Source of the DNA: a virus
IMG/VR virus record: IMGVR_UViG_3300036852_000283
Span: 1-41,627 of that record
Length of the DNA stretch: 41,627 nucleotides
Reading direction: 5' to 3' (one strand)
Position numbers and translations under genes: made by a program. Shown here one piece after another: positions 26,650-31,842 of the stretch. Numbering within the stretch: position 1 is the first letter of the stretch; each line of letters opens with the position of its first letter. The notes beneath the pieces were generated by a model. The model was given only the letters and a program-made list of their open reading frames with translations. It had not been told where the DNA came from and did no database searches.

Positions 26650-27501
26650 TCACGCGCCTTTCACCGCGGCGAGACAGCGCCCGCGTTTAGCGTCGACTGC
26701 TGAACCCTCGTGAATCTCGCCGCAGGTTTTGCACGTCCACGCATGCGGTACGTCGTCTGTTTCTTCATAAATTGGTCCCGGTTCTGGAGCGTCTTGCCAC
26801 TGCTTTTCTTCTAAAAATCGAACGAGATGCGGGATGAAACGACGCTCGAGACGAACCCAGCCAGCGGCTTTTCGCCGCTCAACGTCCGCGAAAATAGCTT
26901 GTGCCATTGCGAGGTCTGGCGAGAGCACGATCCATGCTTGGTTCGCGGCGATTCGCCGCTCTTTGTTGGGGTAGGCCGCATAAATACGATCGAACCAGCG
27001 CACAGAATCGGCTGGTTCCAGCTCCCCGCGCTGATCCTTGTTCGCGCGAACAGTCTCCGAACGTTCGTTTGACGTTTTTAGATCTTGATCTGGTACGTTA
27101 TTAAGATCCACACCACGTAGAACTTCTCTGGAGAACGTTCGCGGAACGTTCGCAGGTTGTTCTCGCGAGTATTCTCGCGAACGTTCGCGAGAACGTGCCA
27201 TTCGGTCCTTGGCCTCCTTTCGTTTCCGCATGATCGTCTCTCGACTGTCGTTCCAGTCGAGGTAATCATGGACCCGGAAGCCATCCGCGTGGTGAGTCCA
27301 GAGTGCGGCCGCCACGAGTTGGTGTGCTGTCTTCGCGGCAACTCTGTTCGGTAATGCCGAATCCGGGATGAATCCGTCGGTGAGCTGTAATTGGCAGTAC
27401 GACAAGCCCCAGACCCATACACAGAACGGTGATTTCCAGTCGATGAGGCCGAGAATCTTCGGATTGTTCATGGCGCCATCATGAATGCGTGCCCAGGCCA
27501 T
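26650..27501 (-). CDS. Replication initiator, O/DnaD-like
   Basis: A 283-residue protein. Residues 1-90 (WARIHDGAMNNPKILGLIDW, VWVWGLSYCQLQLTDGFIPD) resemble the N-terminal winged-helix of phage replication initiators. Residues 103-128 are Arg/Ser/Glu-rich and are encoded by the palindromic cluster at 27121-27193. The second half is helical (RWFDRIYAAYPNKERRIAANQAW), followed by a C-terminal Cys pair region (CKTCGEIH). It overlaps the helicase stop (TGATG) with AGGAGG 7 bases upstream. Like lambda O, it probably binds an origin within its own gene and recruits the helicase next door. Initiator identity is from pattern and context. Confidence 0.82.
   Translation of the reverse strand: MAWARIHDGAMNNPKILGLIDWKSPFCVWVWGLSYCQLQLTDGFIPDSALPNRVAAKTAHQLVAAALWTHHADGFRVHDYLDWNDSRETIMRKRKEAKDRMARSRERSREYSREQPANVPRTFSREVLRGVDLNNVPDQDLKTSNERSETVRANKDQRGELEPADSVRWFDRIYAAYPNKERRIAANQAWIVLSPDLAMAQAIFADVERRKAAGWVRLERRFIPHLVRFLEEKQWQDAPEPGPIYEETDDVPHAWTCKTCGEIHEGSAVDAKRGRCLAAVKGA
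27041..27193. other. Candidate replication origin inside the initiator gene
   Basis: AACGTTCG occurs at 27060, 27134, 27145 and 27180 (the middle pair 11 bases apart, one helical turn). A perfect 22-bp palindrome centred on GAACGTTC spans 27172-27193, and TTCTCGCGA is also at 27160 and 27172. A T/A-richer stretch (about 27068-27115) lies next to it. The arrangement resembles the lambda ori, iterons plus AT-rich DNA in the initiator gene. Confidence 0.7.
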
Positions 27502-29135
27502 CAGGATTCCTCCTGCGCTGAGGCCTCATCAAAGGCGACGTGCTCTGATCGGAACAGCAACTGAATAGACCCACTCCGGCCATCACGATTCTTGGCGACC
27601 TGGCAGGTGGTCTCCGGTTCGCGGTATTTTCGGTGGAGCAACAGAATGATGTCGGCGTCGTGCTCGAGCTCGCCCGATTCTCGCAGCGATGAGAGTGTCG
27701 GCGGTTTCTCGCGATCGTCGTTGGATCCGCGGCTCAGTGACGAGAGGCAAAGCACTGGCATCCGGTATTGCATCGCAAGCGCTTTCAGTCCTTGGCTGAT
27801 CGCTTCGACCTGATGCCGGCGCTCACGAATTTCACGCGGGGCGCGCACCAGTTGCAGGTAGTCGACAACAAGTAAGGCGAGCGGGACTTCCGCGGCCATC
27901 GTCGCGACAAGCTCGGCGATCTCCTCAAGGCTGACGGCATCATCGGTGAACCAGAGCGGGAGCGCGCGCAATTGCTCAACCGATTGCCGCATCGCCCATT
28001 GCTCCTGTACGTTGAGATCCGCGCGTTTCAGCGAACTCGCCTTGATGCGCGCATCCTGGGCGACGAGCCGGCGCGTGAGGGCGAGATTACTCATTTCTCG
28101 ACTGACGACGAGAACGGCACCAGTACGATGTTTCGCCGCGGTTCGCGCGAACTCCAGCCCGAGCGCCGTTTTCCCGACTCCTGGCCGAGCACCGAGGAAG
28201 ACGAGCTCGCTAGGACCGAGTCCGCCGTTCAGGAAGTAATTAAGGGTCGGGAATGGCGTCGGCAACGTCGGCGATGGTCCTGCGGCTAACGCCCGCTCAA
28301 GCGCGGTGAGCGCATCGCCGATGTACGTCGGCTGGATACCTCGAGGCGTGCTGCTGTCGACCGCCTGTCGGCGCGCAATCGACATGACGCATTTTCCAAC
28401 GTCATGCGGCGGGAACGGCGGTGAACAGGCTTTGGCGAAGGATTCACAGAGCAGCGCTGTCACCGTGTCCGTATCTAGGCCTTTTGTTAGAAAGAATCCA
28501 GCGAGTCTTGTACACATCTGATCGCGTTGGCCTTCGCCGACGCCACGTAAGGCATCAGCGACCCAAAAGCGATTCCCGCCAGCCTTCGGATCTCGAGAGG
28601 CCGCCGAGGGTGGCGCAACAGTCCGGCCTATCAGTTCGGTCAGCGCAAAAGGCGCGTGCGGAGGCTTCTCGACAAGCGGCGTAATCCACTCGTAGCGGGC
28701 GCCGGTCGGATGAATCGAGGGCGGGGCCACGACGATTCCAATCCCACGGATATCGACTTGTGGCTTCCCGCCATTCGTCGTCAGTAAGCCGACACGATCG
28801 GGGATGGGAATGTACGCACTGAGGAAGACGTGATAACCGCCGCCAGTTCTAGATCGCGGCGCGTCTGGTGGCAACCCGATACCCTCCGCGGCGAGCAGAT
28901 CTTCAGCGGCGTTGCCGCCGTCAAGATCAACAGCGAATCGACCGCGACCGAGCACGATCGCGACGTTGGCATCCGGCGTATGCTGCCACCAGCCGCCGAG
29001 TTGATCAGCCGTCGGCATCGTCGTCTGAAAATCCTTCCAGGGCACCAGCGGGCGCTTCTCCCGCGGGGCGCACGGAATCGGGTGATAGCCGAGGCGCAGA
29101 TACTCGAGGGCGGCGCTCAGAAACTGGTTCGCCAT
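27501..29135 (-). CDS. Primase-polymerase / DnaB-type helicase fusion
   Basis: A 544-residue protein. Residues about 1-170 are a Prim-Pol domain, with the catalytic VDLDGG (Asp70, Asp72), YHVFL (His102) and a later SIHPTGARYEW (His142). A helical linker near 185-260 resembles the PriCT region. Residues about 295-540 are a DnaB-type helicase: Walker A GARPGVGKT (315-323) and Walker B LLVVDYLQL (421-429), then the RESGELEHDADIILLLHR stretch. It should unwind DNA and prime replication on its own. It lies just upstream of the initiator, coupled by the TGATG junction. No obvious Shine-Dalgarno precedes the ATG, which lies inside the previous gene. Confidence 0.92.
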   Translation of the reverse strand: MANQFLSAALEYLRLGYHPIPCAPREKRPLVPWKDFQTTMPTADQLGGWWQHTPDANVAIVLGRGRFAVDLDGGNAAEDLLAAEGIGLPPDAPRSRTGGGYHVFLSAYIPIPDRVGLLTTNGGKPQVDIRGIGIVVAPPSIHPTGARYEWITPLVEKPPHAPFALTELIGRTVAPPSAASRDPKAGGNRFWVADALRGVGEGQRDQMCTRLAGFFLTKGLDTDTVTALLCESFAKACSPPFPPHDVGKCVMSIARRQAVDSSTPRGIQPTYIGDALTALERALAAGPSPTLPTPFPTLNYFLNGGLGPSELVFLGARPGVGKTALGLEFARTAAKHRTGAVLVVSREMSNLALTRRLVAQDARIKASSLKRADLNVQEQWAMRQSVEQLRALPLWFTDDAVSLEEIAELVATMAAEVPLALLVVDYLQLVRAPREIRERRHQVEAISQGLKALAMQYRMPVLCLSSLSRGSNDDREKPPTLSSLRESGELEHDADIILLLHRKYREPETTCQVAKNRDGRSGSIQLLFRSEHVAFDEASAQEES

Positions 29136-29568
29136 GAGTCAGTGAATAGCGGATGAAACCGCGCATGATTTCAGCGTCATTCTGAAGCACGGTCGCGATG
29201 GTGTGGCACCGAGAACAGATGGGAACCAATGGCCCCTGGTGTCCGTTCGGGGCGTACGGCGCTACGTGTTGTCGATGCCGCTGGACGCCCTGCTCAATCA
29301 GCTCGGCTTTTTTACGGCTGCAGACTACGCAGCGATCGTCGTACCGCTCCCAGACGGCGTCGAGATCTTCCCCGAAGGGATACCCTTTTCTGTTCGGCCG
29401 AGTCGTCTGCTTCAGATTGCAACAGCCCCAGGCTGTTTTAGAGCCACAGTGTGGACAGACGACCCGCATCTGGTTGTGTTCGTTCAGTTCTCGCGCCATG
29501 CTGTGCCGCCGGCAATGAAGGCAAGGCTTGCTGTCTTTTCCGCCGACATCGAACTCGTCAACAGTCAT
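29005..29568 (-). CDS. Zinc-binding, HNH-like protein
   Basis: A 187-residue protein with four or five Cys pairs: CLHC (residue 16), CPHCGSKTAWGCC (38-50), CVVC (80-83), CSRCH (118-122), and a His-rich stretch (RHRQHVAPYAPNGHQGPLVPICS) between the last two. The second half looks like a degenerate HNH or treble-clef nuclease; the Asn of the motif is not clear. The acidic Ser/Pro/Asp tail overlaps the first 130 bases of the primase gene in another frame. It may be a nuclease or a zinc scaffold. Function uncertain. Confidence 0.65.
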   Translation of the reverse strand: MTVDEFDVGGKDSKPCLHCRRHSMARELNEHNQMRVVCPHCGSKTAWGCCNLKQTTRPNRKGYPFGEDLDAVWERYDDRCVVCSRKKAELIEQGVQRHRQHVAPYAPNGHQGPLVPICSRCHTIATVLQNDAEIMRGFIRYSLTHGEPVSERRPRVSAPRLSPDSVRPAGEAPAGALEGFSDDDADG

Positions 29569-29745: not shown

Positions 29746-30040
29746 GAAACCTCGAAGTGCCGGTTTACTCTGAAACCGGCAAAGTCACGCCTTGGTTCGT
29801 CCTGACTCCGTCTGTTCAGGCTCAGGGCCGACGTTCGCCTTCGTCAACGGCGCCAGCGGGTACGTTGCCACGTGCTCAGTTACGGACGATCCCACCTTTT
29901 TCTACAATTCCCGCTTTCGCGGAGTGCGCCTTTCGGTATAGCAGTGACATCGCGAGCGAATCGCAGCGGCTCAGATCTCTCCGATCTGGACGCGCCCCGC
30001 AGGATGACGAGGACCGCGCCAAGTCGCTCGGCAAACTTGG
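29746..30040. other. Mostly noncoding stretch with a hairpin
   Basis: No confident gene is seen in these 295 bases. A 9-bp stem (TGCCGGTTT at 29758-29766 with AAACCGGCA at 29773-29781, loop of six) lies just upstream of the small membrane protein start and could be a regulatory hairpin. One 36-codon minus ORF (29785-29895, from a GTG) lacks a properly spaced ribosome site. A 25-codon minus ORF starts at 30048, over the stop of the gene at 30041-30244. Confidence 0.5.
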
Positions 30041-30244
30041 TTAGCCATGTCGTTGTTTCGCGCGCTCCAGAAACCGAGACACACGCTCGTCTTGAGTTCG
30101 TCGCACCCTCGCCCGATCCGCCGCCGTCTCGACTCGGCCTTTCAACGGTTTCACCGGCGGCAACGCCAACGGCTGCTCTGGCGCGAGGACTTGAATGTCT
30201 CGCCGATACGTCGCCTCCTCGCGCCGCCAGAACCACCACGTCAC
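30041..30244 (-). CDS. Small basic protein coupled to the repeat protein
   Basis: A 67-residue protein beginning with GTG in a GTGA overlap with the repeat-protein gene. It starts with aromatic and basic residues ([15 protein letters not shown]), then a Pro/Val-rich bend ([12 protein letters not shown]), and ends in an Arg-rich helix ([19 protein letters not shown]). The coupling suggests it is made with the repeat protein and may work with it. No family is recognised. Confidence 0.65.
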
Positions 30245-31083
30245 GCCGAGACCCGCTCCGTGACTGGCACCGCGCGCAAGAGGTCAAGAACATACGCCGC
30301 CAACACCGGATAGAAGTCGTCCCTCGCGGCCCTCGCGTCCAACGCGGCCCACGCGGCCCACGCGGCCCACGCGGCCCTCGCGGCCCACGCGTCCCACGCG
30401 GCCCACGCGGCCCTCGCGGCCCTCGCGGCCCTCGCGGCCCTCGCGGCCCTCGCGGCCCACGCGTCCCACGCGGCCCTCGCGTCCCACGCGGCCCTCGCGT
30501 CCCACGCGGCCCTCGCGGCCCTCGCGGCCCACGCGTCCCACGCGGCCCTCGCGGCCCTCGCGGCCCTCGCGGCATCTTTCCATTCGCTCGTCGAGGGGTC
30601 CTCGCCGCGAATGGTCTGATCGAAGAGCGTGACGATGCGGTCGACCACCGCGAGGACCGCCGCGTCTGTGGTGACGTAGCGGGCCCCGTAGTGTTCTGCG
30701 GCGAGCGTCCATCGCAGGATCTTCGCGAGCACGAGATCGTCAATGATTCCACCTACCGGTACGGCTTCAGCGAAGCGTCGCGGCCAGGTGACCGCCTCCG
30801 CGTCAGGCAGGCGTTCGAAGAGGTGATCTTCGAGATGGGCGAGCCAGATAGGCAATCCAAGTTCCGCCTCATATCGTTGGTGGTCATCCGTTCGCGTGTT
30901 CGGGTCGGCCTGTCCTTGAATCAGGTTCAGGGATCGCAGCGAACACCCAATCGCGCAGCCACGCCATTGCCCGTTCATCCTGCCGTACGTGCCTTTGACG
31001 ATCTGATCCGCGCGTTCATGCAGGCCGATCTGCTCGAGCAGCGCCGCTTTGAGTGCGGCGTCTCCGTGATACGTCACTAACAT
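30241..31083 (-). CDS. Conserved phage protein with 28 tandem [R/W][A/D]A repeats
   Basis: A 280-residue protein. Residues 1-168 form a folded domain ([59 protein letters not shown]) that I recognise as a widespread phage protein family of unknown function. Residues 171-254 are 28 copies of a triplet, mostly AAR or AAW with some DAW/DAR, encoded by a 9-bp DNA repeat. Such a helix would show a Trp/Arg stripe every three residues. A short folded tail ([16 protein letters not shown]) follows. AGGCGG lies upstream of the ATG. The repeat array is a frequent feature of the family; its role is unknown. Confidence 0.82.
30322..30573 (-). repeat. 28 tandem copies of a 9-bp repeat
   Basis: 252 bases, exactly 28 units of a 9-bp repeat, mostly AGGGCCGCG or TGGGCCGCG on the minus strand with TGGGACGCG variants. 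Mixing of unit types shows repeated slippage and divergence. Two frames of this tract on opposite strands would encode Gly-Pro-Arg triplets. Confidence 0.95.
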
Positions 31084-31111: not shown

Positions 31112-31273
31112 TCACGCCGAGCGGCCCTCCGGCACTGCGCCGATCGAGCGCGGCTTCGCCTTTGGCTTCTTGGCTTTCTCGCTGAGCTGCTGATTGACGA
31201 GCCGCTGTTTCGCGGCTTCGAGGATCGCGATCTCGCCATCAAGGGAGGCGATCGCTTTGTCTAGCTGCGTCAT
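31112..31273 (-). CDS. Small basic helical protein
   Basis: A 53-residue protein (MTQLDKAIASLDGEIAILEA...) with an ATGA overlap with the HNH-like gene upstream. The first half is an amphipathic coiled-coil helix, the second a Lys/Pro-rich basic tail (KAKKPKAKPRS). It could bind nucleic acid. An in-frame ATG at 31279 is an alternative. No family known. Confidence 0.68.
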   Translation of the reverse strand: MTQLDKAIASLDGEIAILEAAKQRLVNQQLSEKAKKPKAKPRSIGAVPEGRSA

Positions 31274-31842
31274 CCGCATTGCTGTAACTCTCCCATCCGC
31301 TCACGATCGCGCCGTTCGCGATCAGCCTGTTTGTGACACGATCGACAGAGCCATCGCACGCTCAGCGGCTTCGAATAATCGTCGTGATGCGCTTCAACCC
31401 TGATAATGGCGCAGTTCTCGCAGTGAGACGGCTTCACTAGTCTTCCTGATGCAATAGCTGTGGCCATCGCAATATGAGCCCTCTTCTTGTCAGGGTTTCT
31501 TTCGAGCCATGCCTTTTTCCATACGTTGAAGTCTCCGGCATGCTCGCGGCGGACGCGTTTCAGGTATTCACGATTCGACAGGCGCCATCGATGTTGGCTC
31601 GCCGAGACACACACGGCGCACCAGTAGCGACGCGCTTTTTTCATTCGTTCCGTGATGACGATCCGCGCGCCACACTGACGACAAGCCCGCTCTGCTCCGA
31701 CATCAAAGACAGGCCGTTCACGCATAGTCCATGCGGCTCGCGCTCCGCATGTTTTTGTGCAAGATACCTGCGAGTGATCGGCCGGCCTGAAGAGATGGCC
31801 GCACGTACACAGACGATCCGATAGCGTTCGAGGCGGCGCCAT
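31270..31842 (-). CDS. HNH/recombination endonuclease VII-like zinc protein
   Basis: A 190-residue protein with AAAGG upstream. N-terminal Cys pairs (CTCGHLF, CTKTCG, CRQCG, CAVC) come first; the C-terminal part has CENCAIIRVEAHHDDYSKPL followed by WLCRSCHKQADRE, a pattern typical of phage treble-clef nucleases (the HHDDY-x-KPL...WLCRSCH string is widespread). His, Asp and Cys positions look complete. It may nick or cut DNA during replication, or be a homing-type gene. It is the third clear nuclease-like zinc protein in this window. Confidence 0.78.
   Translation of the reverse strand: MAPPRTLSDRLCTCGHLFRPADHSQVSCTKTCGARAAWTMRERPVFDVGAERACRQCGARIVITERMKKARRYWCAVCVSASQHRWRLSNREYLKRVRREHAGDFNVWKKAWLERNPDKKRAHIAMATAIASGRLVKPSHCENCAIIRVEAHHDDYSKPLSVRWLCRSCHKQADRERRDRERMGELQQCG

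Follow-up and report, generated by a model that had tools for sequence, protein, structure and literature searches.

A repeat array in a phage gene, located in the window (the whole stretch of viral DNA analysed here, 41,627 bases), is best explained as a coding minisatellite encoding an alanine-rich, mostly α-helical arm between a globular N-terminal domain (N-domain) and a conserved last helix. This explanation as a whole is given a probability of roughly 0.78. As judged from sequence comparison, the layout of domain, variable repeat and terminal helix, the whole-codon lengths, the homogenised codons and the constraint at the protein level are established. Two helices are predictions supported by structure models: one where the tail begins, and the last one, which is modelled with confidence. 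The features concerned are collected in Table 1.

Table 1. Location of the repeat gene, its parts, its neighbours and the overlapping open frames in the window
Feature	Position	Strand	Basis or reading
ORF, 280 aa: N-domain, repeat tail and C-terminal helix	30241..31083	-	member of an unmodelled phage family
Conserved N-terminal domain, residues 1-168	30580..31083	-	sequence alignment; AF2 mostly confident
Coding minisatellite, 28 x 9 bp, residues 171-254, [A/D]A[R/W]	30322..30573	-	TRF, codon register, lag-9 identity
C-terminal helix, residues 257-270, family motif A..L..LL	30274..30315	-	AF2 pLDDT about 97
Upstream neighbour, endonuclease-like	31270..31842	-	phrog_2340, E 1.3e-19
Nearby replication protein, Prim-Pol/DnaB-like	27501..29135	-	Pfam/PHROGs searches
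ORF with PRG triplets	29872..31080	+	open frame; judged incidental, not a gene
ORF with PRG triplets	29880..30752	-	open frame; judged incidental
REG-triplet frame	30284-30712	-	open frame; judged incidental

The repeat array and its reading frames

The array starts at offset 510 of the ORF and lies in register with it. TRF reported a single array (30321-30573, period 9, 28.1 copies) with 89% matches and 0% indels, bearing out a preliminary description of 28 equal-length 9-bp copies that fill exactly 252 bases without length change. The copies, which that description had called perfect in length, are indeed equal in length but differ in sequence, falling into five unit types: GCCGCGAGG (12 copies), GCCGCGTGG (9 copies), GACGCGTGG and GACGCGAGG (3 copies each) and GCCGCGTTG (1 copy). 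The identity of the array with itself at a lag of nine bases is 0.893, far beyond chance: no other part of the window exceeds 0.399, and 2000 composition shuffles reach at most 0.514. The sense frame had been read as triplets of alanine, A/D and R/W, and indeed consists of [A/D]A[R/W] triplets with one L.

Arginine is encoded in the array by AGG in 15 of 15 cases, while the same codon accounts for 4 of 351 in nine large ORFs of this phage. Alanine is encoded by GCC at position 1 (22/22) and by GCG at position 2 (28/28). This uniform codon choice is not required by the protein pattern alone, which argues that the array grew by the copying of DNA units. The array is a tandem DNA repeat within an ORF, with a unit length that is a multiple of 3, as in coding minisatellites. 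The rarity of AGG in the phage prompted a search of the window for tRNA genes, which found none.

Stop-free, glycine-rich frames are present on both strands, as described before, with PRG triplets on each strand and REG triplets on the minus strand. They have possible start codons, and it could be proposed that the Gly-Pro-Arg frames of either strand encode collagen-like proteins, making the tract a dual-coding element. However, these frames are open over their whole length because the GC-rich 9-bp unit is itself stop-free. A Gly-X-Y frame is not conserved among 123 relatives: a stop-free frame with glycine at every third position occurs in 14 of them, spread over four different frames (-0, +1, +2 and -2). 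The significance given to these frames is therefore not upheld. Dual coding is extremely improbable, and comparison with the relatives leads to the frames being regarded as incidental.

The array gene is flanked by two endonuclease-like ORFs, a strong match to phrog_2340 on the upstream side and a weakly HNH-like ORF at 29005-29568. The neighbours of family genes include replication, recombination and DNA-methylase genes, and neighbour clustering (309 clusters from 335 neighbours) revealed no constant partner gene beside family members.

A phage protein family with a repetitive tail

No usable match to the 280-aa protein, its N-domain or its family was found in Pfam, PHROGs or NCBIfam, and searches of the PDB by sequence and by fold gave no credible relative and no fold with E < 1. 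Literature searches gave no description of the family or its Ala-rich tails. The adjoining domain had been assigned to a known unnamed phage family; an unnamed phage family with relatives does exist, but none of the three collections holds a model of it. The window N-domain alone as a query recovered no related loci, and relatives in IMG/VR were gathered with small sub-alignments as queries. The relatives come from Xanthomonas phages, a Roseomonas plasmid and IMG/VR, and amount to 205 loci with 166 distinct domain sequences. The family looks mainly viral, since a scan of genome contigs with two narrow sequence patterns gave two family loci.

The nearest members to the window protein (L303, L304 and L305; 58-61% domain identity) all show a strict period of 3. 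The hypothetical proteins of Xanthomonas phages KPhi1 (K1pha_60, APQ41939.1), phiXaf18 (phiXaf18_37) and XapPhi3 (WYA89303.1) share with the window protein a homologous N-domain (identity about 36-37% across 66% of the domain), an Ala-rich repeat tail and a terminal helix. In contrast to the strict [A/D]A[R/W] pattern of the window, their SAA[E/R/W] tail has mainly 12-bp units and mixed spacing. A BFVD fold search gave one clear relative, A0A6J5QCR4 from an uncultured Caudovirales phage (Foldseek E 3.6e-17, 45% identity, TM 0.68/0.76), which belongs to the same family, is uncharacterised and gives no function. The family gene lacks annotation in several XapPhi records, and one phage carries two members in tandem (L179, 3001-3747 and 4562-5332).

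Three features define the family, and the window protein has them all. The residues K12, H22, D26, C43, A44, C47, F89 and E90 of the N-domain are invariant in 75 aligned members. An Ala-rich repetitive tail follows the N-domain in 122 of 122 full-length members, with a median length of 86.5 aa (range 26-163). The terminal-helix pattern is matched by 114 of 124 distinct full-length proteins, with a recognisable variant in most of the other ten. The idea that the tract is a variable add-on has to be abandoned, as every full-length member has the tail, placed in nearly all of them between two conserved segments.

The chemistry of the tail varies widely, including S-A-A-E/R/W, A-A-Y/D, R-L-D/R-L-A, L-A-D/L-A-Y, R-A-T and the A/D-A-R/W of the window, with a strict period of 3 in about a dozen members. 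At least 45 changes of chemistry were counted on a FastTree tree of 126 rows. The tail of L156 mixes L, R and D. In L187, residues about 165-200 follow a period of two (AWAWAWAWAW), a pattern not expected from a helical-stripe model. At the DNA level, the same codon is reused for repeated tail residues in 93% of cases (median), versus 33% expected from each member's own N-domain, and the reuse is above expectation in 122 of 123 members. The effective number of Ala codons is 1.29 in tails and 2.93 in N-domains. On this codon evidence, the family tails are coding minisatellites, repeated at the DNA level.

A homogenised DNA repeat near replication genes could act in the first place as DNA or RNA, in the form of replication iterons, a recombination site or an RNA structure, with coding as a secondary property. 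The RNA of the array folds better than shuffled sequences (z -3.4), although self-complementary GC repeats readily do so, and L303 and L304 suggest crossover inside arrays. Nevertheless, the DNA unit differs between relatives (GCC-GCG-AGG, GCT-GCG-CGG, GCC-GCA-CGG or TCG-GCG-GCG-NRG) while Ala-richness and frame stay. The replication-origin (iteron) reading ranks low, since relatives keep the Ala-richness but not the DNA unit. A function at the nucleic-acid level is, overall, very unlikely.

The lengths of the tails are consistent with maintenance of the frame. In four close pairs of family relatives, which are not siblings of the window phage, the tail gaps range from 3 to 90 nt and are all multiples of 3, and a clear tail frameshift occurs in 1 of 124 distinct full-length members (L186). 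Comparison of tract lengths among relatives thus agrees with the earlier claim that the reading frame is under selection; a single sequence would be insufficient for that claim, which is supported through the relatives and not by the window alone. In L186 (3001-3486) the frameshift lies at the start of the tail, with tail and terminal helix present in another frame, and an assembly error is possible. The four complete XapPhi copies have one common length, and two tail versions differ by 4 synonymous and 0 nonsynonymous codon changes, which are small numbers. These four synonymous changes separate the near-identical phages XapPhi3 and XapPhi5 (L002 and L008), as if units had been copied within the array.

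Copy number or junctions of the array could be wrong in a metagenomic contig, since such arrays are badly handled by short-read assemblies. The deposited genomes of XapPhi1 and XapPhi2 (L005, L010) start and stop within the repeat tail of the gene, and at the contig end of L303 the array continues into a foreign C-terminus. However, the window array is in frame with the conserved segments on both its sides, the N-domain and the last helix, and the isolate phages KPhi1, phiXaf18 and XapPhi3 have the same layout. An assembly artefact is accordingly given little credence.

Constraint on the protein and predicted structure

Across the family, the alanine fraction of the tail is independent of GC content (Spearman 0.10, p 0.26), with N-domain GC ranging from 0.28 to 0.68. 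Among twelve arrays of strict period 3, 34 types of unit variant are nonsynonymous and 5 synonymous, where 29% synonymous would be expected (p 0.014). These arrays are not fully independent, and the unit pattern of the window itself occurs in, or served to find, all of them except L014, L110 and L194, that is, nine. Counted by copies, the same arrays hold 287 nonsynonymous and 11 synonymous variants. The family-wide version of the test gives a smaller excess, with 22% synonymous versus 27% expected. Variation within the strict-3 units falls at two sites, A/D and R/W, recurring on different synonymous backgrounds; the A/D dimorphism is found in 12 of 12 arrays, on backgrounds such as GCC-GCG-AGG, GCT-GCG-CGG and GCC-GCA-CGG.

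The mostly amino-acid-changing unit variation, together with the GC-independent alanine content, points to selection at the protein level, superimposed on a DNA repeat that homogenises. Copies would turn over by slippage or unequal recombination within the array, and the need for the last helix would lead selection to retain lengths that stay in frame. Variation at two codon positions could also suggest the target of a diversity-generating retroelement, but whole tandem units fit slippage better.

AF2 models the N-domain of the window protein mostly with confidence. Residues 165-204 form a helix in which block pLDDT falls from about 95 to 73, residues 206-236 score below 50, and the last helix is the confident segment listed in Table 1. 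The tract had been described as helical, with a structure prediction proposed for residues 165-260: both the helix that opens the tail and the terminal one agree with this, but the part between them is of low confidence. The short-tail relative L061 has a mean pLDDT of 90.4, its tail being a short helix that runs into a long last helix. The Ala-rich arm is probably helical according to these models, though its shape is modelled at low confidence where pLDDT is below 50. On the simplest reading of the AF2 models, the last helix would pack against the body and form part of it, so that the arm would fold out and back.

The spacing of bulky residues has been compared across the family. A periodicity peak at 95-115 degrees, as an α-helix would give, is the most frequent one (49 of 123 members), and a spacing of 3-4 positions between bulky residues is retained at widely differing GC contents. 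In the window protein they recur at an exact 3-residue period, that is, at 120 degrees. Arg and Trp would consequently wind round an α-helix, and the single Trp/Arg stripe described before does not follow; an exact spacing of 3 residues is less than ideal for keeping side chains on one face of an α-helix.

It might be argued that the tail is a passive spacer, a drifting and tolerated minisatellite for which any soluble, Ala-rich, stop-free filler would serve, with length and side-chain chemistry functionless. This would accommodate the range of tail lengths (26 to 163 aa), the frequent changes of chemistry, the period-2 tail of L187 and the mixed tail of L156. It accounts less well for the bias of unit variants towards amino-acid replacements, which in several arrays fall on the same two positions, for bulky residues spaced every 3-4 positions at very different GC contents, and for XapPhi tails that keep their protein sequence while codons change. 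Alternatively, the arm may be a quickly adapting interaction surface for a putative host or phage partner, a weaker proposal than the minisatellite itself. The tolerated spacer and the partner-binding arm are considered about equally likely, and each falls short of even odds.

Repeat arms on other phage proteins and their significance

Scans with the unit of the window and with an S-A-A-X unit revealed the same repeat type attached to four or more other kinds of phage domain, some of which match Pfam Imm5_like. The S-A-A-X scan gave 80 loci, 52 with the domain of the window family, 13 cut and 15 with other domains. One group of carriers is characterised by the motif C..EAA..LND (L208, L211, L223, L240, L267, L272, L280 and L295). 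In a second, GEWY..GFHASK, L231 and L243 match DUF7666 and Imm5_like, and in a third, DRLWAV..DCAER (L257, L285 and L218), there are Imm5 or Imm5_like matches, most below cut-off. L209 has an Imm5_like match below cut-off, and L206/L216 carry the arm with a DUF6745 C-terminus. Two further carriers of Ala-rich repeats (L207 and L217) have a domain without detectable relation to that of the window. Comparison by hhalign of the window N-domain with the C..EAA..LND domain and the DRLWAV..DCAER group indicated no relation (probability about 0.1%).

Since unrelated phage domains carry the same repeat type, the repeat arm is, as far as these scans indicate, a fast-evolving part that recurs among proteins, whether shared or convergent. 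The N-domains of L303 and L304 are 88% identical and their repeats are of the same type, while the C-terminus of L303, at a contig end, differs; this suggests recombination within arrays, or a chimeric assembly.

Pfam Imm5_like (PF21805) and Imm5 (PF14423) are putative immunity proteins, matched by other arm carriers (L231, E 4e-6; L243, 8e-6; L285, 3.5e-5 to Imm5). In contrast, the window protein and 75 family members have no such match at E 0.1. A more speculative proposal, unlikely as it stands, is that phage proteins share a fast-adapting helical interaction module in the form of Ala-rich coding minisatellites. Unrelated domains (the window family, the DUF7666 and Imm5-like carriers, the C..EAA..LND group and the DUF6745 carrier) would have independently acquired or exchanged this module, turnover of the array would readjust the binding of a factor of host defence or a toxin factor, and the DNA of the repeat would double as a crossover point between carriers.

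In corynephage CL31, the gene clg55 contains an in-frame coding repeat present in 4, 6 or 8 copies between plaques (PMC8002715). It resembles the window array as an in-frame coding repeat in a phage gene but has 42-bp units and lies in a minor tail protein. Coding repeats of phages are usually reported gene by gene; here, a whole family and several unrelated domains share a type of arm. A large uncharacterised family is thereby named, with a predicted N-domain that has no match to solved folds here. The DNA of the arm is homogenised, yet specific amino-acid dimorphisms are kept. This makes it a testable question whether the turnover of a minisatellite in a phage gene is tolerated noise or a means of adapting a binding surface.
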